Shown piece after piece: positions 4,872 through 42,000 of a stretch of 46,550 nucleotides of DNA. The first letter of the stretch is position 1. Each line of letters begins with the position of its first letter. The translations under genes were made by a program, and so were the position numbers. The stretch comes from Bifidobacteriaceae bacterium (GTDB lineage: Bacteria > Actinomycetota > Actinomycetes > Actinomycetales > WQXJ01). The notes below the pieces were generated by a model, which ran no database searches, was not told where the DNA came from, and saw only the letters and a list, made by a program, of their open reading frames with translations. The stretch lies in assembly GCA_031272885.1 (NCBI GenBank), contig JAISSX010000071.1:1-46550 (forward strand), given 5' to 3'.

Positions 4872-6716
4872 ATGGATACTGTCTCCACCCCGCCCAATGT
4901 CACCGTCGACCCGTCGTGGAACATCAACCACCTCCAGTTGCGCCGGCTCGAAAAGGAACCGGACGCGGTCGCCATCGAGCGCCAACAGGCCGATGGCACC
5001 TGGCAGCCGATGACGGTCAAGCAGTTCGACGATGACGTCGTGGCAGTCGCGAAAGGCCTGGTGGCCCTGGGTATTCAGCCCGGTGACCACGTGGCCATCA
5101 TGTCCCGCACGCGCTACGAGTGGGCCTTGTTCGACTACGCGATTTGGGCGGCCGGGGCCGTCTCCGTGCCGATCTACGAGACCAGCTCGGTGGAGCAAGT
5201 CCAGTGGATTTGCTCCGATGGCGAGGTCACGGCCGCGGTGGTGGAGAACGCCGCCCACAACCTGGTGATAGACGCCGCCCGCAGTTCGCTGCCCAAGCTG
5301 ACCCAGGTCTGGCAAATCGAACAGGACGCCGTGGCGGCCCTCAAGGTGGTTGGCCGGGGCGTGCCGACAGCCGAGATCGACCGCCGCCGGCTGCTGGCCG
5401 TTGGTGACGACCTGGCCACCATCATCTACACCTCTGGCACCACGGGCCGGCCCAAGGGCACCGAACTGACCCACGGCCACTTCGTCCGGCTGACCGACAA
5501 CACCCAGTTCGACCAGACCGACCTGACGGTGGTGCCCGTCATCGCCGCCCCCGGTTGCCGCACCCTGTTGTTCCTGCCGTTGGCGCACGTCTTTGCCCGC
5601 TTCATCCAGGTGATCGGCCTGGCTTCAAGCACCGTTGTGGGCCACTGCCCGGACGTCAAGAACCTGGTGCCGGCCTTGGGCTCGTTCAAACCCAGTTTCA
5701 TCCTGGGGGTGCCGCGGGTGCTGGAGAAGGTTTATAACGCGGCCGAGCAGAAGGCCGGCCACGGTATCAAGCTGAAGATCTTCCGCTGGGCCGCCAAGGT
5801 CGCCATCGTCTACTCGCGGGCCATGGATACGGAGAAGGGTCCGTCCGCCTGGCTGACGCGGCAGCACAAGCTGGCCGACAAGCTGGTGTACGGGTCGCTG
5901 CGGGCCGCCATCGGCGGTAATACTACCTACGCCGTGTCCGGTGGGGCCGCCCTCGGTGAGCGGCTGGGGCACTTCTACCGCGGCATCGGGCTGACGGTGT
6001 TGGAAGGCTACGGCCTGACCGAGACTACGGCACCGATTCTGGTCAACCGGCTGCAGGTGCAAAAGATCGGTTCAGTGGGCCTGCCGTTCCCCGGCTGCAC
6101 GGTCAAAATCGCTGATGACGGCGAGATTTTGCTCAAGGGCATCAACGTCTTCTTCCGGTACCACAACAACCCCAAGGCCACCCGCGAGGCGCTCAAGGGG
6201 GGCTGGTTCCACACCGGCGACGTGGGCTATCTGGACGACGAAGGCTACCTGTTCATCACCGGCCGCAAGAAGGAACTGATCGTGACGGCGGGCGGCAAGA
6301 ACGTGGCCCCGGCCGTGCTGGAGGACCGGCTGCGGGGACACCCGTTGGTGTCGCAGGTGGTCGTGGTGGGTGATGGCCAGCCGTTCATCGGCGCGTTGGT
6401 CACCTTGGACCACGAGATGCTGCCCGGCTGGCTGACCAACCACGGCAAACAGCCGATGTCGGTCGATGCCGCCCGGGATGACCCTGACGTGATAGCTTCG
6501 CTGGTCAAGGCGGTGCAGCGAACCAACCAGGCGGTGTCCAGGGCGGAGTCGATCCGCAAGTTCGTGATTCTGCCGGGAGACTTCACGGAGTCGAACGGCT
6601 ACCTGACGCCGTCGCTCAAGGTCAAGCGGTCGCTGGTGCTCAAGGACTTTGCCGACACCGTCCAGAAGTTGTATTCGGACGGTGACACGGGCCACTCGGT
6701 GCCAACCGATCAGTAA
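4872..6716 (+). CDS. long-chain fatty acid-CoA ligase (AMP-forming), FadD15-like
   Basis: A 614-residue member of the ANL superfamily that activates fatty acids to acyl-CoA through an acyl-adenylate. Core motifs in order: the P-loop IIYTSGTTGRPKGTELTHGH around residue 185, the linker motif GYGLTETTAPI, GWFHTGDVGYLDDEGYLFITGRKKELIVTAGGKN with the hinge Asp and Gly-Arg-Lys-Lys, and a C-terminal SNGYLTPSLKVKR containing the catalytic-type Lys. Length and ending fit the FadD15/FACL branch. The start ATG is preceded by AAGGAA at good spacing; an in-frame start 90 codons upstream runs through recO antisense and is rejected. Control by the upstream palindrome is plausible. Confidence 0.93.
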   Translation: MDTVSTPPNVTVDPSWNINHLQLRRLEKEPDAVAIERQQADGTWQPMTVKQFDDDVVAVAKGLVALGIQPGDHVAIMSRTRYEWALFDYAIWAAGAVSVPIYETSSVEQVQWICSDGEVTAAVVENAAHNLVIDAARSSLPKLTQVWQIEQDAVAALKVVGRGVPTAEIDRRRLLAVGDDLATIIYTSGTTGRPKGTELTHGHFVRLTDNTQFDQTDLTVVPVIAAPGCRTLLFLPLAHVFARFIQVIGLASSTVVGHCPDVKNLVPALGSFKPSFILGVPRVLEKVYNAAEQKAGHGIKLKIFRWAAKVAIVYSRAMDTEKGPSAWLTRQHKLADKLVYGSLRAAIGGNTTYAVSGGAALGERLGHFYRGIGLTVLEGYGLTETTAPILVNRLQVQKIGSVGLPFPGCTVKIADDGEILLKGINVFFRYHNNPKATREALKGGWFHTGDVGYLDDEGYLFITGRKKELIVTAGGKNVAPAVLEDRLRGHPLVSQVVVVGDGQPFIGALVTLDHEMLPGWLTNHGKQPMSVDAARDDPDVIASLVKAVQRTNQAVSRAESIRKFVILPGDFTESNGYLTPSLKVKRSLVLKDFADTVQKLYSDGDTGHSVPTDQ

Positions 6717-6775
6717 GAATCTGGGCTATCCTTGAGTGAAAGTACTCTAACCAAGACTGATGGAAGGCCCCCGGA

Positions 6776-7501
6776 ATGACCATGCTCCGAGCCCGGACCG
6801 TTCTCGCCTGTGCTGCTGCCGCCCTGGTGGCGGCCACTTTGACCGCCTGCGGTGGTGACTCGGGCGACTCGCCCGCCGTCGAGGATCAAGGCACCGTGCC
6901 ACCGGCCGTGTTGCCCTCCTTCACCGCCCCTTCTGGGCAGCCCACGCCGGACGATCCGCTAGAGGAGAAACTGGAATCCGGCTCGCAGGTGCAAGAGGGC
7001 TGGGTTTCGGCCCCATGGGGCCTGGCCGCCCCGGTCACGTCCGACACCACCGAATTGAAGATCGTCTACGTGGCCGGTGAAACCGTCTGCTACGGACCCG
7101 GCGGCTTCACCGTCAAGGAAGAGTCCGGCAAGGTCACCGTGGGCGCGTACCTGGAGAAGGTGGCCGAACCGGCCGGTGAATGCCTGGTGGGCCAGTGGGC
7201 CTACAAGTGGGGCACCATCACGTTGTCCGAGCCGCTTGGGTCGCGCGAGCTGTACCACGCCGGGGTGGACCAGATGTTCGACGGCTTCGTCTGGGACCCG
7301 TGGGAGGGCACCGAGACTACCGTTGAGACGCCGGAACCCGAAGAGACCAAGTACGAGACGCCGGCCGATGAGGCTCCGGCGGACGAGACCCCGGCGGACG
7401 AGACCACTACAGACGAAACGCCGGCCGACGAAACAACCGCAGACGAAGCGCCGGCCGATGAAGCCAGCACGCCAGCCGATGAGGAAGGTGCAGCGGAATG
7501 A
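6776..7501 (+). CDS. lipoprotein with acidic degenerate-repeat C-terminus
   Basis: A 241-residue secreted lipoprotein I do not recognise. Residues 1-25 form a lipoprotein signal ending in lipobox LTAC, with Cys25 as lipid site. Residues 26-185 are a globular, unassigned region containing two Cys (VCYGPGG and GECLVGQW) that could form a disulfide. The last ~55 residues are about eight imperfect copies of (A/E)DE(T/A)PA, a highly acidic, probably unfolded tail. GGAAGG gives a clear ribosome binding site. The stop codon overlaps the next start as ATGA, so it is translationally coupled to the small RAM-domain gene. A TATCCT box at 6727-6732 could be its -10. Confidence 0.8.
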   Translation: MTMLRARTVLACAAAALVAATLTACGGDSGDSPAVEDQGTVPPAVLPSFTAPSGQPTPDDPLEEKLESGSQVQEGWVSAPWGLAAPVTSDTTELKIVYVAGETVCYGPGGFTVKEESGKVTVGAYLEKVAEPAGECLVGQWAYKWGTITLSEPLGSRELYHAGVDQMFDGFVWDPWEGTETTVETPEPEETKYETPADEAPADETPADETTTDETPADETTADEAPADEASTPADEEGAAE

Positions 7502-7779
7502 TCACCGCCGTTGTCATGATTACTGCCGATGCCGCCCAGATCCCCGAGGCGGCCCAGGCCATCGCCAACCTGCCCGGCGTGTCCGAGGTCTACTCGGTCA
7601 CCGGCGAGGTCGACCTGATCGCGGTGGTCAAGGTGCGCCAGCATGAGGACCTGGCCGGGGTGATCGCGGACAAGATGTCGAAGACGCCGGGCGTGGTCTC
7701 CACCCAGACGTTCATCGCCTTCCAGACCTTCTCCGCCCAGGACCTCGACTCGGCCTACTCCCTCGGCCTCGACGACTAA
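7498..7779 (+). CDS. stand-alone Lrp/AsnC ligand-binding (RAM) domain protein
   Basis: A 93-residue protein that is just the ligand-binding alpha-beta sandwich of Lrp/AsnC regulators, without any helix-turn-helix. The pattern is VVMITADAAQIPEAAQAIANLPGV, then EVYSVTGEVDLIAVVKV and PGVVSTQTFIAF, the usual RAM strands with the conserved Gly-Glu/Asp-Asp turn. Such small proteins are common in actinobacteria and archaea and probably oligomerise and bind amino acids, or modulate a full-length Lrp protein; the exact role is unknown. Its start overlaps the preceding lipoprotein stop, and a type A palindromic element begins 15 bases after its stop. Confidence 0.9.
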   Translation: MITAVVMITADAAQIPEAAQAIANLPGVSEVYSVTGEVDLIAVVKVRQHEDLAGVIADKMSKTPGVVSTQTFIAFQTFSAQDLDSAYSLGLDD

Positions 7780-7793
7780 CCCCCCTCCCTCCC

Positions 7794-7903
7794 CCTCGCG
7801 AGAGTACGGTTATGTAGGTGGACCGAATTATGGTCAACTCTCTGACCTGCGAAAATGTACGAGGTCTCTCGACGTCAAGCTACACAACCGTACTCTCGCG
7901 AGG
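7794..7903. repeat. palindromic element, type A, copy 1
   Basis: A 110-bp element bounded by 24-bp inverted arms (left 7794-7817, right 7880-7903; 23 of 24 match). Arms begin CCTCGCGAGAGTACGGTT. An internal conserved motif, CTGACCTGCG followed by A-rich bases, starts 50 bases from the left end. It lies just after the RAM-domain gene and could also act as a hairpin terminator. Other copies: 9046, 11453 and 33026; relatives with different inner arms at 17250 and 23313. Confidence 0.9.
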
Positions 7904-7995
7904 GAGTCTTGGCCGATACTGAGTAATTCCAATGATCCACAGGCCAAGCGGCACTTGGCGCGACACCAACTGGGCATGGAGCAGACTGCCCAAGC

Positions 7996-9069
7996 ATGCG
8001 ACACAACGACCACACCACATCCGACCCGACACCATTTCTCGGCTGCTGCCGCGGCGGCGTTGAACCAGGCGCGCGCCTGTTCCGTGGCGTCTACACCGAG
8101 CACCTACTCGATGATGCGCTGGCTGCGTTGGCTCAGCGATGTCAAGCTGCCCTACTCACCGCCCCGGCGGGATCAGTGATCTGCGGGTCCACCGCTCTTG
8201 CGCTCCTGCAGGTGGCCTTGCCTTCGCAGTTCGAAAGGGAAGCCAACCAGCGGATCCACTTGCTATGCTCCACCAGCGCAAGGGCTACTCGAAGGCCTGG
8301 CATTGTGGTTCATCGGGCAGACCACCACCCGCAGGTTTTCGGGGATGTCCTTGGGGTGCCCCTTGCGGACCCAATCGTCTGTTGGCGCCAGTTGATCAAC
8401 TGTTGGCTTTCAGCCAAGGCGGTTGGTACTCCAAGAATCGCATCCCGTTTGGGCTTCATAGTTGACCCGACACTGGTGCCCTTGGCCTGGTCCAACCTGC
8501 AGGTCGAACCGCAGCCCTCTGACGCGTATCGCCTACCGCCGCCCGGCTACTTCACCACCCCCGGCAAGCGCCTCTTCCTCGGTTTGGTGCAGGTCGGAGA
8601 TGGCTTGATGCGCCGCCAGAATCCGCTGCTCAAGCACACAGACGTCATTGCCGCCCTTGACAAGGACAGCGGTAGCAGAGGAATTCGCCTAGCCAGGCTG
8701 ATCTGCTCTCACATGCGGGAAAACACGGATGCACCAACCGAAACTTGGGCCCGTCTTGTAGCAGTCGACGCCGGATTCCCCGTCCCTCGAGTCAACCATC
8801 CGATCACCGGACCATGCGGCAATGCTCTCTTCTACCTTGATATGGCCTGGCTCAAGCGCAAGACCGCCTACGAATACCACGGCAAGTGGCACTTCGAGGC
8901 GACCGACAAGGCGTTGGCCGATCAGGCCCGCAGAAACGAACTGCAACGCTTGGGCTGGCGGGTGATCGAAGTTACGGCTGAGGACTTAGTCCACCCGGAC
9001 AGCCTCATCTCCCGTCTCGATGATGCCCTCACCAGCCACTCCCACACTCGCGAGAGTACGGTTATGTAG
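7996..9069 (+). CDS. DUF559/AbiEi-like protein with a C-terminal PD-(D/E)XK-type nuclease-like domain
   Basis: A 357-residue protein of an actinobacterial family with an AbiEi-antitoxin-like front and a DUF559 (very-short-patch-repair-like) C-terminus. The front has the typical VICGSTALALLQVALP segment followed by a middle domain ending in VPLADPIVCWRQL. The C-terminal domain shows LFYLDMAW, TAYEYHGKWHF, and LQRLGWRVIEVTAEDL, equivalent to the Asp, Glu-x-x and strand positions of the nuclease fold. The last residues, about TRESTVM, and the TAG stop are encoded by palindromic element copy 2. The gene lies exactly between element copies 1 and 2 and looks less GC-biased than its neighbours, suggesting acquisition. 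The start is uncertain because no good ribosome binding site is visible; activity is unknown. Confidence 0.7.
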   Translation: MRHNDHTTSDPTPFLGCCRGGVEPGARLFRGVYTEHLLDDALAALAQRCQAALLTAPAGSVICGSTALALLQVALPSQFEREANQRIHLLCSTSARATRRPGIVVHRADHHPQVFGDVLGVPLADPIVCWRQLINCWLSAKAVGTPRIASRLGFIVDPTLVPLAWSNLQVEPQPSDAYRLPPPGYFTTPGKRLFLGLVQVGDGLMRRQNPLLKHTDVIAALDKDSGSRGIRLARLICSHMRENTDAPTETWARLVAVDAGFPVPRVNHPITGPCGNALFYLDMAWLKRKTAYEYHGKWHFEATDKALADQARRNELQRLGWRVIEVTAEDLVHPDSLISRLDDALTSHSHTRESTVM

Positions 9070-9155
9070 GTGGGCCGAATCATGGTCAACTCTCTGACCT
9101 GCGCAAACACAAACAGCGCCGCCCGCCGAACCTACACAACCGTACTCTCGCGAGG
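9046..9155. repeat. palindromic element, type A, copy 2
   Basis: 110 bp with arms at 9046-9069 and 9132-9155. Its left half is nearly identical to copy 1 for about 59 bases, pointing to a recent common origin. The left arm overlaps the end of the DUF559/AbiEi-like gene and supplies its stop codon (9067-9069). It separates two convergent genes (that gene and sodA) and could terminate both transcripts. Confidence 0.9.
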
Positions 9156-10384: not shown

Positions 10385-11476
10385 ATGCCTGTTGCCGAAA
10401 CCCCCACTTGGCCTGCCCTCATCACCGCCCTGATCCAGGGCCGCGACCTGACTGTTGACCAGGCCGCGTGGGCCATGGACGAGGTCATGGGCGGCAACGC
10501 CAGCCCCGTCCAGTTGGCTGGTTTCCTGGTGGCACTGCGCGCCAAAGGCGAAACAGTCGACGAACTGCACGGCCTGGCCGATTCGATGCTTGGCCATGGT
10601 GTGCCGGTTGATCTGCCAACGGATGCGATCGACATCGTCGGCACCGGCGGCGACCGGGCCTTTACGGTGAACGTTTCGACGATGGCGTCCCTGGTGATTG
10701 CGGGTTCGGGCGCCAAGGTGGTGAAACACGGCAACCGGGCGTCATCGTCCAAGTCCGGCTCGGCCGATGTAATCGAGGCCCTTGGCGTGAACTTGGCCCT
10801 GCCGGTGGAGGCCGTGGTCGAGGTGGCGCATGAGGTTGGCATCGCCTTCCTGTTTGCCCAGGTGTTCCACCCTTCGATGCGCCACGCGGCCGTGGCCCGG
10901 CGCGAACTGGGTGTGGCGACCGTATTCAACTTCCTGGGCCCATTGACCAACCCCGCCAAACCGCGGGCGGCCGCCATCGGCTGTACTGACGCTGTCATGG
11001 CGCCCCTGATGGCGGGTGTGCTAGCGGCCCGCGGCGTGGGCGCCCTGGTGTTCCGAGGCCAGAACGACGGCCTGGATGAAATGGCTGCCACCGGCCCGGT
11101 GCAGGTGTGGGACGTGCAGGGCGGGCAGGTGGAGGCGTCAGTGATTGACCCCGTGGCTCAACTAGGGCTAGACCCGATCACGGTGGCCGACCTGCGCGGC
11201 GGCGACGCGTCCCATAACGCCGCGGTCGCCCGGTCCGTTTTGGCTGGTCAGCCCGGCCCGGTGCGACAGACCGTGGAATTGAATGCGGCCGCCGGCCTGG
11301 TGGCTCTGGGTGCCCGGCCGGAACTGAGTGATGGCCCGCTGGTTGGCCGGTTGAGCGCCGGGTTGGCGCTGGCCAGGGAGTCGATCGATTCCGGTGCGGC
11401 TGCGGGGGCGCTGGCGCGCTGGGTCGAGGCCACCCGCCGTTTCGCCCAGTCCTCTCACGAAAGTACGGTTGTGTAG
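10385..11476 (+). CDS. trpD: anthranilate phosphoribosyltransferase
   Basis: A 363-residue enzyme that transfers phosphoribose from PRPP to anthranilate, second step of tryptophan synthesis. The helical N-terminal domain has [19 protein letters not shown]; the PRPP-binding motifs are [17 protein letters not shown] and [32 protein letters not shown] and [14 protein letters not shown]-type residues (here [14 protein letters not shown]) follow. It stands alone, without other trp genes. The last residues, about SSHESTVV, and the TAG stop are read from the left arm of palindromic element copy 3, so the natural C-terminus appears to have been replaced or extended by the element. The ATG start fits a leaderless transcript. 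Confidence 0.97.
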
Positions 11477-11562
11477 GCGTGGCCAATTTGGGCCAACTCT
11501 CTGACCTGCGTAAACACTAGTAGTCGCTCGACATCGAACTACATAACCGTACTCTCGCGAGG
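11453..11562. repeat. palindromic element, type A, copy 3
   Basis: 110 bp with arms 11453-11476 and 11539-11562. The left arm is the most diverged of the type A arms (TCTCACGAAAGTACGG) and resembles type B at its outer end, linking the two subtypes. The conserved CTGACCTGCG motif is again 50 bases in. The left arm encodes the trpD C-terminus and stop codon. Confidence 0.9.
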
Positions 11563-14521: not shown

Positions 14522-15529
14522 TCAACAGATCCGGGGTAGCGGGTCACCCACCAGCATGTCCACCAGCCGCGTGCCACCGAAGGCGTTGCGGATCGCCACC
14601 ACGCCTTCCGGCCCGGGGCGGATCTGCCCGATGACGCCCGGTTGCGGCGCGCCGGCCGCCTGCAGGGCGCTGACCGCCGCCTGGGCGGCATCGTCCGCCA
14701 CCACCGCCACCAGCCGGCCTTCGTTGGCGACATACAGCGGGTCGATACCGAGCATGTCGCAGGCGCCCCGCACGGCCGTTTCGACCGGGATGGCTTCGTC
14801 TTCCAGCAGCACGGCGTGGCCGGACCCTTTGGCCAGTTCGTTGGCCACGGTGGCCAGACCGCCGCGGGTCGGGTCGCGCATCCAACGCACGTCGCCCGGG
14901 TCAAGGGCCTGGTAGAGGGCCTCGACCAGGTGGTTGATGGGCGCCGAATCGGTCCTGATGTCTGCCTCCAGCGCCAGGTTGCCGCGGGCCAGCATGACGG
15001 CCATGCCGTGGGCGGCGATGGGCCCGGACAGGATGACCGCGTCACCGGGTTGGGCGCGCGTGGCACCCAGTTCGCGGCCTTCGGGGACGGTGCCCAGGCC
15101 GGCTGTGTTGATGAAGAGTTGGTCCGCCGCGCCCTTCGGCACCACCTTGGTGTCGCCGGTCACGATCCGTACCCCGGCGGCAGCGGCGGCGGCCGCCATG
15201 TCCGCCACGATGGCGCCCAGTTCTTCCATTTCTAGGCCCTCTTCGATGACGAAGCCGGCCGACAGGTACTGGGCGATGGCGCCGCTGACGGCCAGATCGT
15301 TGACGGTGCCGTTGACGGCCAGGTCGCCGATCGACCCGCCCGGGAACCGGATCGGCGAAACGACGTAGCTGTCGGTGGTGAAGGCGGAGCGGGCACCCGT
15401 GGCGAGAACCGCGGCATCGGCCAGTTCACCGGGGTTGGCGGCGCCGAAGGCGGTAATGAACACCTCGTCGATCAGCTTGGCGGTGGCCTTGCCGCCCGCC
15501 CCGTGGGCCAGCGTGATGACCTCGCTCAT
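14522..15529 (-). CDS. hypE: hydrogenase maturation factor HypE (carbamoyl dehydratase)
   Basis: A 335-residue PurM/ThiL-fold enzyme that dehydrates the thiocarbamoyl group made on its C-terminal Cys by HypF to give thiocyanate, the source of the CN ligands. The start has LAHGAGGKATAKLI and FTTDSYVVSP; IVTGDTKVV and MRDPTRGGLATVANELA are ATP-site signatures; and the protein ends in PRIC with the essential terminal Cys. The ATG overlaps the hypF stop (ATGA). A longer in-frame ORF extends upstream through hypF antisense and is rejected. Confidence 0.97.
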   Translation of the reverse strand: MSEVITLAHGAGGKATAKLIDEVFITAFGAANPGELADAAVLATGARSAFTTDSYVVSPIRFPGGSIGDLAVNGTVNDLAVSGAIAQYLSAGFVIEEGLEMEELGAIVADMAAAAAAAGVRIVTGDTKVVPKGAADQLFINTAGLGTVPEGRELGATRAQPGDAVILSGPIAAHGMAVMLARGNLALEADIRTDSAPINHLVEALYQALDPGDVRWMRDPTRGGLATVANELAKGSGHAVLLEDEAIPVETAVRGACDMLGIDPLYVANEGRLVAVVADDAAQAAVSALQAAGAPQPGVIGQIRPGPEGVVAIRNAFGGTRLVDMLVGDPLPRIC

Positions 15530-18006
15530 GCGGCCCCGCTTTCTAATGTCAGGTATCCGGCCAGTGCCTGACCCAAGGCTAGCCCCCCGTCGTTGGCCGG
15601 AACCACGTGGTGGGTGACGGTGGGGTGGCCTTGGTTGGCCAGGCGCTCGGTTAGGTCGCCGACCAGCAGGCGGTTGCAGGCCACACCCCCGGTCAGGCCG
15701 ATGGCGGCGCCTGGGGCGGCGGCGGCGTGGGCAGCCTCGGCGCAGATGGCGGCGAACCCGGCCTGGAAGGCGCGGGCCAGGCAGCACGGTGGGCGATCGG
15801 CGTGGATGCCTTCGACCAGGTTGCGGACCAGTGCGGCGAGCGGGTCTGGCTCGGTCACGGCCGATGACGGGTGGCCGGGTTCGCGGTGCTGGCAGCGGCG
15901 GGCGGTGGCTTCCAGTTCCATGGCAGCCTGAGCCTCGTACAGCACGGTGTGGCGCAGGCCTATCAGGCTGGCCACGGCATCGAACAGCCGGCCGGCCGAG
16001 GTGGTGCGAACCACGGTCACCTGATTGTCCAATTGCGACCTGACCAGGCGGAACTCCTCGGCTGGGGCGGCCAGGGCCGGGGGCAGGCCGGCCGGGTCCA
16101 GGCCGTATTCGTGGAGCAGGGCAAGGGCACATTTCCAGGGGTGTTTGATGGCGCTGTCACCGCCCGGCAGCCAGAAGCCGGGCAGGTGCCAGGCGCGCCG
16201 GTAGTCCAGCGGGTCTTGGCCCAAGGTCAACAGTTCGCCGCCCCAAATGGTGGCGTCGTCGCCATAGCCGGTGCCGTCCAGGACCAGGTAGGTGCTGGGC
16301 GGGGGCGGCGGGGCGGGCCGGCCGGGGGCGGCCGGCCCGCCCTGGGTTTCCGCCAGCAGTGACAGGGCGTGGGCGTGGTGGTGCTGCACCGGCAGCACCA
16401 CCACGCCCGTGCGTTCCGCCCAACGCTCAGCCCAGGCCCGTGTTGCATAACCGGGGTGTTTGTCGCACACCACCACCTCCGGCCGGCGCCGGTGCATGGT
16501 CAACATCTGGGCCACGGATTTTTCGAAGGCGGCCTGGGTTTCCAGCGACCCCATGTCGCCAATGTGCGCTGACATAAAGGCCAGCCCATCTCTGACCAGC
16601 GCAAAGGTGTTCTTCAGTTCGGCGCCTACCGCTAGCACCGCGTGGTCGGCTTGGCCCAGGCGCACCGGTAGGGGCGCGTAGCCGCGCGAGCGGCGCACGG
16701 GCCCGGCCCCACCCAGCACCGAATCCTCCACCGGCACATGGATGGGCCGGTTGTGGGTCAAGAACAGGTCAACAAATGCCAGGTCGCGGTCGGCGTCCTC
16801 GTTCAGGTAGGTGAGCGGCAGCGAACTGGAGTTGGCGCTGGTGGCCACCAGCACGTCATCGGGCGCCAAGAGGAGGTGATGTACGGGGGCGTATGGCAGC
16901 ATCAGGCCGATCTCGTCCAGGCCGGGCGCTACTTCCGCGGCCAGGTCGTAACCGGGTGCCATTGGCGCCAACACGATCGGCGCGGCCGCGCTGGTCAGGT
17001 CGTTGAGCTGACTATCCGATAGGATCGCCAGCCGCCGCGCCGCCGACGGCGAACCGGCCATGACCGCCAGGGGTTTGGCCGGGCGGCGCTTGCGCCGGCG
17101 CAGTTCGGCCACGGCCGCCGCATTCCGGGCATCGCACATGATGGTAAAGCCGCCTATACCCTTAACGGCCAGGATTTTGCCTTCGGCCAGGGCCGCCCGC
17201 GCGGCCTGGAACGTCTTGGTCGCTACCGCCTGGCGGGATGTTCCGCTCTCCTCACGAAAGGTCAATTCCGTTTCCCGGGGCGACCGGGCGCCATCGGGCA
17301 CAGGCCGCTGACCTGCGGAAACGCTGGCGCCGTCCGCGCTCACCGCGGCAGAATTGACCTCTCGCGCAAGATTATTGACCTTTCGCGAGGAAGGGGGGCC
17401 GGAAGGAGGGGGGCCGGAGGGAGGGGCCGGGGGGGTCTCCAGCCACAGGAGTGGACCGCAATCCCAACAGCTGATCGGCTGGGCGTGATAGCGCCGGTCC
17501 GCCGGATCCTCGTATTCGGCCCGGCAGGCCGGGCACATCGGGAAGTCCGCCATGGTGGTCAGGGGCCGGTCATAGGGTACGTCGCGGATAATCGACAACC
17601 GCGGCCCACAGTTGGTGCAGTTGATGAACGGGTAACCGTAGCGCCGGTCGCCAGGGTCCCGCATCTCCCGCAGGCAATCATCGCAGGTGGCCACGTCCGG
17701 CGAGATCAGCGTCACCGCCCCTGCCACCCGCCTGGAGGGCACGATGGCGAACCCCACCTCCCCCGGCACCACCGGCAAATCGCTCTCCTCCACCCAGGCG
17801 ATCCGGGCTAGCGGCGGTGCCTCGGTGCGGACGGCCGCCAGGAACCCAGCGACATCGGGCACCCGGCCCTGGGCCTCCACGAACACGGCCACGTCATCGT
17901 TGCCGCAGAAACCGGTGAGCGGGAACCGGGCCGCCACCCGGGCCACGTGCGGCCGGAAACCCACCCCTTGCACCACCCCGGTGATGACGGCCCGCCTGCG
18001 GATCAC
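15526..18006 (-). CDS. hypF: carbamoyltransferase HypF with an in-frame 47-codon palindromic insert
   Basis: HypF makes the carbamoyl adenylate that modifies HypE. Domains in order: acylphosphatase (residues 1-90, GVVQGVGFRPHVARVA), two zinc fingers (CDDCLREM, CTNCGPRL, CPACRAEY, CWDCGPLL, about 108-184), YrdC-like (about 264-445, KILAVKGIGGFTIMCDA) and Kae1-like carbamoyltransferase (about 490-826, QHHHAHALSLLAE, LDGTGYGDDATIWGGE). Residues 206-252 are encoded exactly by palindromic element type B copy 1, giving 826 residues, longer than the usual 750-780. The insert lies in a Pro-rich linker, so function may be retained. I chose the GTG at 18006 where family homology begins; no good ribosome binding site is visible and longer starts are possible. 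Confidence 0.93.
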   Translation of the reverse strand: MIRRRAVITGVVQGVGFRPHVARVAARFPLTGFCGNDDVAVFVEAQGRVPDVAGFLAAVRTEAPPLARIAWVEESDLPVVPGEVGFAIVPSRRVAGAVTLISPDVATCDDCLREMRDPGDRRYGYPFINCTNCGPRLSIIRDVPYDRPLTTMADFPMCPACRAEYEDPADRRYHAQPISCWDCGPLLWLETPPAPPSGPPPSGPPSSRKVNNLAREVNSAAVSADGASVSAGQRPVPDGARSPRETELTFREESGTSRQAVATKTFQAARAALAEGKILAVKGIGGFTIMCDARNAAAVAELRRRKRRPAKPLAVMAGSPSAARRLAILSDSQLNDLTSAAAPIVLAPMAPGYDLAAEVAPGLDEIGLMLPYAPVHHLLLAPDDVLVATSANSSSLPLTYLNEDADRDLAFVDLFLTHNRPIHVPVEDSVLGGAGPVRRSRGYAPLPVRLGQADHAVLAVGAELKNTFALVRDGLAFMSAHIGDMGSLETQAAFEKSVAQMLTMHRRRPEVVVCDKHPGYATRAWAERWAERTGVVVLPVQHHHAHALSLLAETQGGPAAPGRPAPPPPPSTYLVLDGTGYGDDATIWGGELLTLGQDPLDYRRAWHLPGFWLPGGDSAIKHPWKCALALLHEYGLDPAGLPPALAAPAEEFRLVRSQLDNQVTVVRTTSAGRLFDAVASLIGLRHTVLYEAQAAMELEATARRCQHREPGHPSSAVTEPDPLAALVRNLVEGIHADRPPCCLARAFQAGFAAICAEAAHAAAAPGAAIGLTGGVACNRLLVGDLTERLANQGHPTVTHHVVPANDGGLALGQALAGYLTLESGAA
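17250..17390. repeat. palindromic element, type B, copy 1, inside hypF
   Basis: 141 bp, exactly 47 codons. The left arm 17250-17270 (CCTCACGAAAGGTCAATTCC) is matched by two inverted right arms in tandem, 17351-17370 and 17371-17390. The motif CTGACCTGCG with following AAACGC is 60 bases from the left end. In the hypF frame the element reads without stops, with outer peptides like SRKVNN and ELTFREE. Its outer 11 bases match the type A arms. Confidence 0.9.
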
Positions 18007-23312: not shown

Positions 23313-23453
23313 CCTCACGAAAGGTCAATTCCGTCGCCAGCCCGGCCGAGACGGAAATTGGCCCATGCCTGTGACCTGGGCAAACGCTCCGGGACAATTT
23401 GTTGGGCGTGACGGAATTGACCTTTCGCGCCGGGGAATTGACCTTTCGCGAGG
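23313..23453. repeat. palindromic element, type B, copy 2, in the hypA/hupK-like divergent region
   Basis: 141 bp, the same length as the hypF copy. Left arm 23313-23333; two tandem inverted right arms, 23412-23431 and 23433-23453, each containing GAATTGACCTTTCGCG. The motif TGACCTGGGCAAACGC is 60 bases in. It fills most of the 166 bases between two divergent start codons, so promoters of both genes must lie in it or at its edges. Read on either strand its ends give ELTFRE peptides. Confidence 0.9.
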
Positions 23454-23467
23454 GAGGTGGGGGCGCT

Positions 23468-24826
23468 GTGAGTGAGCGGGTGGGGCTGGACCGGGCCCAG
23501 CGGCTCATGGTGGACCGGGCCCAGCGGCTCATGGCGGACCGGGCCCAGCGGGTGGTGTTGGAGTTGGGGATCGATACTGCCGGGGCCGGTGTGCGCGTGC
23601 GGCGGAATGCCGCCGGTGCAGCCATCGACGCCCGGCTGGACCTGGCCGCCCTGCCACGCATCGAGCCGCTGCTGCTGGGCCGGCCGGTGGCCGAGGTGCC
23701 CTCATTGGTCGAACGCCTCTGCGGCGTCTGCCCCGTGCCTCACCACCTGGCCGGCGTCCAGGCCCTCGAAGCCATGGCCGGGCTGCGGCCCGGCTCGCTG
23801 CCCGCCACAGCGGACACGGCCCGGCGCCTGTTGCACCACGCGGCCGTGGTCGAAACCCTGGCCGTCCCCTTTGTCGGCACGGCCCGGCCGGCCGTCCTGG
23901 CCGCCCGGGCCTGGGCCAAAGCCGCCAAGGCGGCCGTCGGTTCACCCGGCCATTTCCCTACCACCGCGGTCCCGGGAGGCGTGATTGACGCGGTCCCCAG
24001 TGCCGCCGCCTGGGCCGAGGCGGCGGCACTGGCCCCGGCCGCCCTCCAGGCCGCCGAGGAACTGGTCGCCGCCGCCACGGGCGCCCCACCGGACCCCGCC
24101 CAACCCGCCTGGGCCGGCGCCGATGCCGCCCTGGTCGATGCCCTGGGCCACCCCGACCCCTTGGGCGGCTGGCTCAAGGTGGTGGCGGCGGACGGCTCCG
24201 TCTTGGCTGAGGGCGCCACACCGGACCAGTTCGCCGACCTGGTGGCCCTGGCCGCCCCAACCGACGCCGCCCCACGCCCCTACCTGCGCGCCCTTGGACC
24301 GGCAGCCGAGCGCTACCGGGTGGGCCCGGTCGCCATCCTGCGGACGGGCACCCTCGACACGCCGCGCGCCGCGGCCCACCAGGGTGCCTGGCTCGCGGCC
24401 GGCCCCGCCGCTCTTGCGGGAGGCGCCGCCACCGCCCGCGCCATCTTCCTGCTGCACTGCCTGGAACGCGCCGCGGCCATCCTGGCGGCCCCCGCCCCCA
24501 CCGCGCGCAGCCAACACCGCCTGCCCCACCTCAACCCCAAGGAAGGTTGGGGCGTGGGCTGGGTGGATGGTCCACGCGGCCTGCTGGTCCACCGCTACGA
24601 GGCCGAGGGCGCCCCGCCCGCACTGACCAACGCCACCATCCTGACCCCCACGGCCCAGAATGAACCCTGGCTGGCCGACCTGTTGACGGACGCCATCGGG
24701 CAACCCGATCCCACCCGCCAACAGGCCCTTGAAGCCGCCCTGCGGGCGGCCGATCCCTGCCTGCCCTTCCTAGCCGCCCCGCCTGGCACCATGGACATAG
24801 CCATCCTGGAGGAGGTGCAGCCCTGA
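23468..24826 (+). CDS. HupK/HoxV-like degenerate hydrogenase large-subunit homologue
   Basis: A 452-residue protein related to NiFe large subunits but not a catalytic one. It keeps an L1-type motif, ERLCGVCPVPHHLAGVQALEAMAG (Cys85, Cys88), and PHL-type segments, yet the C-terminal CxxCxxH is reduced to a single Cys in ADPCLPFLA (about Cys431) and there is no protease-cut tail. This is the pattern of HupK/HoxV, accessory proteins thought to act as scaffold or carrier during iron-centre assembly. A second hypC and hypA follow with overlapping starts, suggesting a dedicated assembly module. Start GTG 23468 has GGGAGG before it; residues 6-30 include a three-fold DRAQRLM repeat. Name by similarity pattern only. 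Confidence 0.75.
   Translation: MSERVGLDRAQRLMVDRAQRLMADRAQRVVLELGIDTAGAGVRVRRNAAGAAIDARLDLAALPRIEPLLLGRPVAEVPSLVERLCGVCPVPHHLAGVQALEAMAGLRPGSLPATADTARRLLHHAAVVETLAVPFVGTARPAVLAARAWAKAAKAAVGSPGHFPTTAVPGGVIDAVPSAAAWAEAAALAPAALQAAEELVAAATGAPPDPAQPAWAGADAALVDALGHPDPLGGWLKVVAADGSVLAEGATPDQFADLVALAAPTDAAPRPYLRALGPAAERYRVGPVAILRTGTLDTPRAAAHQGAWLAAGPAALAGGAATARAIFLLHCLERAAAILAAPAPTARSQHRLPHLNPKEGWGVGWVDGPRGLLVHRYEAEGAPPALTNATILTPTAQNEPWLADLLTDAIGQPDPTRQQALEAALRAADPCLPFLAAPPGTMDIAILEEVQP
23488..23551 (+). repeat. 24-bp tandem repeat at the 5' end of the HupK-like gene
   Basis: Units start at 23488, 23512 and 23536 (third incomplete), each beginning GGACCGGGCCCAGCGG. They encode DRAQRLMV, DRAQRLMA and DRAQRVV. 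Near-identity of the units implies recent slippage; the number may vary among strains. Confidence 0.85.
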
Positions 24827-33025: not shown

Positions 33026-33134
33026 CCTCGCGAGAGTACGGTTATGTAGATCTCTCGATGTCGAGCTATTGCGTTTGTGCAGGTCACAGCGCTGCCCAAT
33101 TTTGTTGGAGCTACATAACCGTACTCTCGCGAGG
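33026..33134. repeat. palindromic element, type A, copy 4
   Basis: 109 bp with perfect 24/24 inverted arms (33026-33049 and 33111-33134). The conserved CTGACCTGC-like motif is on the minus strand here (read GCAGGTCACAG on plus), 49 bases from the right end, so this copy is inverted relative to copies 1-3. It separates convergent genes pepA and the small gene at 33156. Confidence 0.9.
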
Positions 33135-37220: not shown

Positions 37221-37252
37221 CTTGCAGTGCCCGATGGCGCCCAGTCGGACAT

Positions 37253-41902: not shown

Positions 41903-41953
41903 TCCCGATGCCGCCCGCCCGACTGGGCGGCGGTAGGTGCCCGATGCCGCCCG
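41903..41953. repeat. short dispersed CCCGATGCCGCCC repeat, two copies around a hairpin
   Basis: CCCGATGCCGCCCG occurs at about 41904 and 41940; between them GCCGCCC (41910-41916) pairs with GGGCGGC (41925-41931). The 17-mer GTGCCCGATGCCGCCCG at 41937-41953 is identical to 1748-1764, also intergenic. Confidence 0.55.
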
Positions 41954-42000
41954 TTCACCTGCGCGCCTACCCCTAGACTTGGGTGCAGGAACCGCCAGCT

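Follow-up and report, generated by a model that had tools for sequence, protein, structure and literature searches.

A high-copy, MITE-like repeat with helically spaced sites lies in frame within hypF of a Bifidobacteriaceae bacterium

The analysed window (the whole stretch of 46,550 nucleotides from contig JAISSX010000071.1 of a Bifidobacteriaceae bacterium) contains an intact hypF gene (15526-18006, minus strand), which encodes a carbamoyltransferase HypF of 826 aa. The assignment draws on Pfam HypF domains, on a profile search in which the protein scored 649 bits against TIGR00143 (hypF; cut-off 466), and on a motif check in which both zinc motifs (CxxC-x18-CxxC) and the HHHAH motif were found to be kept. 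No internal stop interrupts the frame from 18006 to 15526. The start codon is the pick of a simple Markov gene finder, and the codon numbers given here follow this predicted start. Searching the genome with the HypF protein returned, besides copies of the repeat described below, no further match; hence, hypF appears to be present in a single copy.

Within this gene lies a copy of an inverted-repeat element (17250-17390, minus strand, 141 bp) with the ends CCTCACGAAAGGTCAATTC and GAATTGACCTCTCGCG...ATTGACCTTTCGCGAGG. It begins at the second position of codon 206, ends at the first position of codon 253 and supplies 47 in-frame codons within SRKVNNLAREVNSAAVSADGASVSAGQRPVPDGARSPRETELTFRE; the coordinates, length and residue placement proposed in the initial annotation were accurate. 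One left-end site (17255-17269, minus strand), reading CGAAAGGTCAATTCC on the plus strand (the complement of the TTGACCTTTCG motif), is paired with two right-end sites on the plus strand: an inner one, TGACCTCTCG (17355-17364, with GAAT just before it), and an outer one, TGACCTTTCG (17376-17385), 21 bp from the inner. A central site, TGACCTGCG (17309-17317, plus strand), is found at an offset of 54 from the left site, and a G-rich tail (17391-17440), from which the hypF strand encodes TPPAPPSGPPPSGPPSS, adjoins the two-site end. A second copy, intergenic and on the plus strand (23313-23453), shares the length of 141 bp and the site layout, and aligns to the hypF copy without gaps over 141 bp, the arms being conserved and the middle diverged. 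It had been described as the same element some 6 kb off; its length and its position outside genes stand, but at ~70% identity it is a diverged sister copy. Close by, three tandem 24-bp repeats (23475-23562) occupy the start of a predicted gene (23468-24826).

In most relatives, ~15 residues separate the YrdC-like domain from the last zinc motif; the count is 12-14 in PDB 3vth and 4g9i, as compared with 76-81 in the present HypF. The segment is missing from these distant orthologues and from the same-family ones; that orthologues of distant genera might share it, which the initial annotation had named as an argument against an insertion, is thus not the case. Relative to orthologues, the ~61-62 extra residues comprise the 47 element codons and ~15 Pro/Ser/Gly residues from the G-rich tail, and this Pro/Ser-rich stretch beside the element is likewise missing from most relatives. 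The alignment therefore confirms the insertion, at a size larger than the clean 47-residue indel that had been anticipated. A nucleotide-level empty site for hypF was not found, the nearest HypF being ~60% identical.

The G-rich tail has counterparts elsewhere: over 43 pooled copies, the flank contains 57-59% G in its first 20 bases and ~33-35% by 80 bases, and the left flank is C-rich. Judging from these flanks, the tail probably goes with the element and not with the old HypF linker. Considering that ~15 of the inserted codons derive from this tail, the Pro-rich linker is itself probably not ancestral; the element had been placed correctly between the zinc-finger and YrdC domains, while the linker taken as its surroundings is probably the G-rich tail seen beside many copies. 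As the frame reads, the element should be translated as part of HypF.

In order to survey the element, we used the arm motif GAATTGACCTTTCGCGAGG (<=2 mismatches), which gave 114 matches in the 2.95-Mb genome versus 0 in a backward control, so that the repeat is by no means confined to this locus, a case that the initial annotation had named as a refutation. In 52 stretches around motif matches (~590 kb, or 637 kb including the window) there were 60 clusters of at least two sites, 50 of which span >=60 bp and were taken as element copies; as the copies were gathered via the arm motif, its apparent conservation is inflated. The lengths (from first to last site) fall mainly into classes of 121, 131-133, 142-144 and 152-153 bp. 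The element is short, non-autonomous and high-copy, and carries terminal inverted repeats, all of which are traits of MITEs. Several copies have long similar flanks in common (up to ~300 bp in all), which points to a mobile unit without a fixed boundary.

The variable length of HypF linkers in some relatives (L034) would agree with the segment being an ordinary fast-evolving HypF linker that merely resembles a repeat. This is hardly conceivable against the number of motif matches, the gapless agreement with the intergenic copy and the DNA matches of 75-79% that the hypF element as a whole has at several other loci. Genome-wide repetition and absence from orthologues support the earlier view of a formerly mobile repeat that is no ordinary hypF segment.

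Other repeats were observed in the same genome. A separate short repeat, CGGGCGGCATCGGGCAC, and its variants (1745-1775, 37227-37247, 41937-41959 and elsewhere) occur alone or as a module within or beside elements. Intergenic arrays with a unit around CCGGAGAGACTTYYGGTAGT (L089, last 700 bases; L094, 5184-5537; L070, 6824-7169) represent one of several such families, and a palindromic repeat, GGGGACGGTTCCGTGTAACATGGGTGACGCC, is common to several contigs (L064, last 300 bases; L065, 7065-7336; L100, 3199-3388).

The distribution of the element appears narrow. The arm motif had 0 matches in one same-genus genome (69% complete, and therefore weaker evidence) and in 16 other same-family genomes, and 1 weak match among 41 other same-order genomes. 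A looser two-site pattern, with 65 matches in the genome, gave one match each in six genomes out of 395 others from the order; these six were rejected as relatives of the element, the sites being in tandem with no inverted partner nearby. Across 84,980 species genomes (a set from which the window's own or very near records may be omitted), only 2 loci were recovered, neither with the element's layout, and no relatives were found in viral contigs. A match in Anaerolineae SJ719 was set aside as a 10-bp tandem repeat, the rest of that genome being without clear excess over the backward control; there, a long tandem array with the 10-bp unit CGAAAGGTCG lies at a contig end (L113, 1-350). In Herbiconiux daphne (L114, 7610-7947), ~three units carry inverted arms, TCGCGAGAGGTCA and TGACTTCTCGGCG, that are 47 bp apart and resemble the arm motif.

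Gene placement relied on the simple Markov gene finder, which called 87.5% of the sequence coding. The genome search suggested by the initial annotation yielded ~50 structured copies, of which 5/50 were placed in genes: three internally (HypF, an ABC-F ATPase and a CbiQ-like transporter protein) and two at gene ends, where a BirA-like gene (L061) and an ApbE-like gene (L089) terminate within a copy. By sequence comparison, the in-frame insertion in the CbiQ-like protein (L073) is clear, as ~27 residues are missing there from a 77%-identical protein of the same genus. The ABC-F ATPase (L093) probably carries an in-frame copy too, in the stretch that joins its second ATPase domain to the C-terminal one; this case is less clean, since the linker is long and variable among relatives as well. 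We rejected misassembly of the in-gene cases, since the two halves of each protein are found on either side of the element, in the correct order and without a frame change. That the element is an exact multiple of three and leaves the hypF frame open is correct as a fact but weak as evidence: at least one frame is open through 40 of 46 copies (the three internal ones set aside), and copies that survive inside genes are necessarily in frame. The particular frame used by HypF is open in 12 of the same 46.

Each element contains three or four conserved sites (TTGACCTTTCGCG) and, usually, the central TGACCTGCG in either orientation. The usual layout is one left site and two direct right sites 21 bp apart, while three copies have two sites on both sides. 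The gaps between sites fall into narrow classes ~10.5 bp apart (34/44-45/54-55; 37/47-48; 27/37-38/48-49; 33-34/44-46), and these steps hold although the intervening DNA differs between copies; two copies (gaps 61 and 68) are off this grid. Since copies are related, the phase test was run on a reduced set, in which each group of interiors with similar sequence was represented by a single copy of each length. The score came to 0.85, whereas 20,000 random draws averaged 0.34 and did not exceed 0.70; the period is loosely fixed (anything from 10.5 to 11.5 fits). In the 121-bp class (16 copies), the left site and the inner right site were the most conserved (0.93-0.97), followed by the outer right site (0.90), as compared with 0.68 for the interior; the motif itself having been used to find the copies, only AATTC, by which it is extended, and the variant of the outer site give unbiased evidence of conservation. 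Multi-site helical spacing is a trait of Tn7/Mu-type ends (~20-bp sites), those of the Tn7 type reading TGT...ACA, and the element shares it; helical dependence on end spacing is also shown by short IS50 derivatives. A search of the literature (with incomplete coverage) turned up no description of bacterial MITEs with quantised lengths.

A looping DNA-binding protein would likewise be expected to go with helically phased and conserved sites. The sites may thus be targets of a host protein with an architectural or regulatory role (e.g., a nucleoid organiser or a looping repressor), and the array may owe its upkeep, and even its spread, to a host function and not to mobility; that neither a transposase nor a target duplication was found speaks in the same direction. 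We regard this as unlikely, given that unrelated genes contain copies internally or at their ends, that relatives lack the copies, and that copies tend to be rare between divergent genes, the place where a regulator would be expected (7 observed versus 14.8 expected for this and a sister family together; p = 0.018 over three classes).

The sister family has arms CCTCGCGAGAGTACGGTTATGTAG and a length of 109-111 bp, and has the central TGACCTGCG site and the G-rich outer flanks in common with the element. Four copies lie in the window: 7794-7903 (110 bp, central TGACCTGCG), 9046-9155, 11453-11562 and 33026-33134 (central site in the opposite orientation). In all, 7 of 14 placed copies of this family lie between convergent genes, as would suit an element acting as RNA, i.e. 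a stable bidirectional gene-end hairpin (a terminator or mRNA stabiliser, in the manner of BIME, BOX and ERIC) whose in-gene copies would be accidental. The hairpins are indeed strong (z = -4.0 and -5.9), and the C-rich 5' and G-rich 3' flanks lengthen the stem. The element's own arms, however, are conserved as sequence: the sole variable position (A/G) shows no co-variation between arms (34 agreements versus 33.4 expected), although a G-U pair could absorb this change. No Rfam family was matched at gathering score, and the 10.5-bp length steps are left unexplained by a hairpin function, which we therefore hold to be improbable, more so than a host looping protein. Both explanations lose ground through the arms without co-variation and the scarcity between divergent genes.

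We consider it likely that the 141-bp segment belongs to a non-autonomous, MITE-like element of high copy number that is specific to this lineage, that it was inserted with its G-rich tail into the HypF linker with the frame kept, and that the element is recognised by a protein complex sensitive to helical phase. The site pattern fits a complex in which sites on the same side of the helix are brought together, and there are precedents: in the CAST transposon VchCAST, altered spacing of the TnsB sites affects activity with a periodicity of 10 bp (PMC10201428), and the short, transposon-derived IESs of Paramecium have lengths with a 10-bp period, attributed by the authors of that study to loops that join the two ends (PMC3408717). 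We therefore favour the view that a non-autonomous element transposed in the past. Copies would have spread through a protein, most likely a recombinase of the transposase type (now perhaps lost, unassembled or not recognised), which bound the central site together with three to four sites of ~16 bp. If its complex worked only with the sites facing one side of the helix, only phase-compatible interior lengths would have multiplied. One such copy, with its tail, would have entered between the zinc-finger and YrdC-like domains and added the ~61-62 residues, an insertion that HypF presumably tolerates, as the linker lies between domains and already varies in length among relatives.

What counts against transposition is the absence of target duplications and of a fitting transposase. 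No target-site duplication rose above multiple-testing noise (lengths 2-12, all offsets up to 29); many MITEs lose theirs with age. In the genome (95% complete, 81 contigs), we found no Y1/RAYT transposase (PF01797; five control genomes gave matches in the same search), no DDE_Tnp_1 transposase (PF01609) and no cognate transposase of the TnsB/MuA type. The sole rve match was to the istA of an IS21-type istAB pair (L177, ~5950-8070), whose ends are unrelated to the element and whose flank repeats read GCAGACCGCGTCAGCGCCGGTCGAAAATGCAGCC. Within these transposase families (PF01797, PF01609 and rve), no autonomous insertion sequence with the element's ends came up.

Among known systems, Tn7/Mu-like ends (e.g., VchCAST) resemble the element in having several transposase sites, unequal at the two ends, and 10-bp spacing effects (PMC10201428); they differ in that here no fitting transposase was recognised, there is no cargo, and the ends are not TGT...ACA. 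As in BOX and BIME, the interiors are modular, with several short repeat units exchanged between copies, whereas the RAYT (Y1) transposase of REP/BIME systems is absent from this genome. Coxiella QMITE1/QMITE2 (PMC5896051) and enterobacterial ERIC/RU (PMC2759123) are likewise MITE-like repeats of ~100-400 bp in many copies, mostly intergenic and in some cases read in frame; QMITEs have direct repeats at their ends, and none were detected here. The Rickettsia RPEs, as described in a review (PMC10969869), are palindromic repeats of ~150 bp in several families that lie in frame within unrelated protein genes and elsewhere. Here too, a palindromic element was inserted in frame into unrelated intact genes and is missing from orthologues (clearly in HypF and the CbiQ-like protein, likely in ABC-F). 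The host differs, genes are touched by ~5/50 copies as against nearly half of RPEs, and phased multi-site arrays do not figure in that description of RPEs.

The Rickettsia precedent invoked by the initial annotation was thus apt in kind but overstated in rarity, given QMITE, ERIC/RU and, in this genome, two further internal and two C-terminal cases. In-frame insertion of this sort is already known; the phased multi-site structure appears to be new, and the family and its host genes are new as well. HypF, the CbiQ-like transporter and probably the ABC-F ATPase join the short list of proteins with a translated mobile repeat. As helical phase sets the gap length in ~50 natural variants but leaves their sequence free, these variants make it possible to test directly which geometry the putative recombinase or binding protein requires. 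The nearest parallel in length periodicity is that of the Paramecium IESs, which are excised from the somatic genome, whereas the element shows no sign of being excised and leaves the gene open. We propose tentatively, as a serious possibility that falls a little short of probable, that this bacterial short-repeat family needs all its binding sites on one helix face, for its spread or for a present function, and is accordingly quantised in length by ~10.5 bp: a bacterial counterpart of the IES periodicity, some copies of which would have been adopted as protein linkers.
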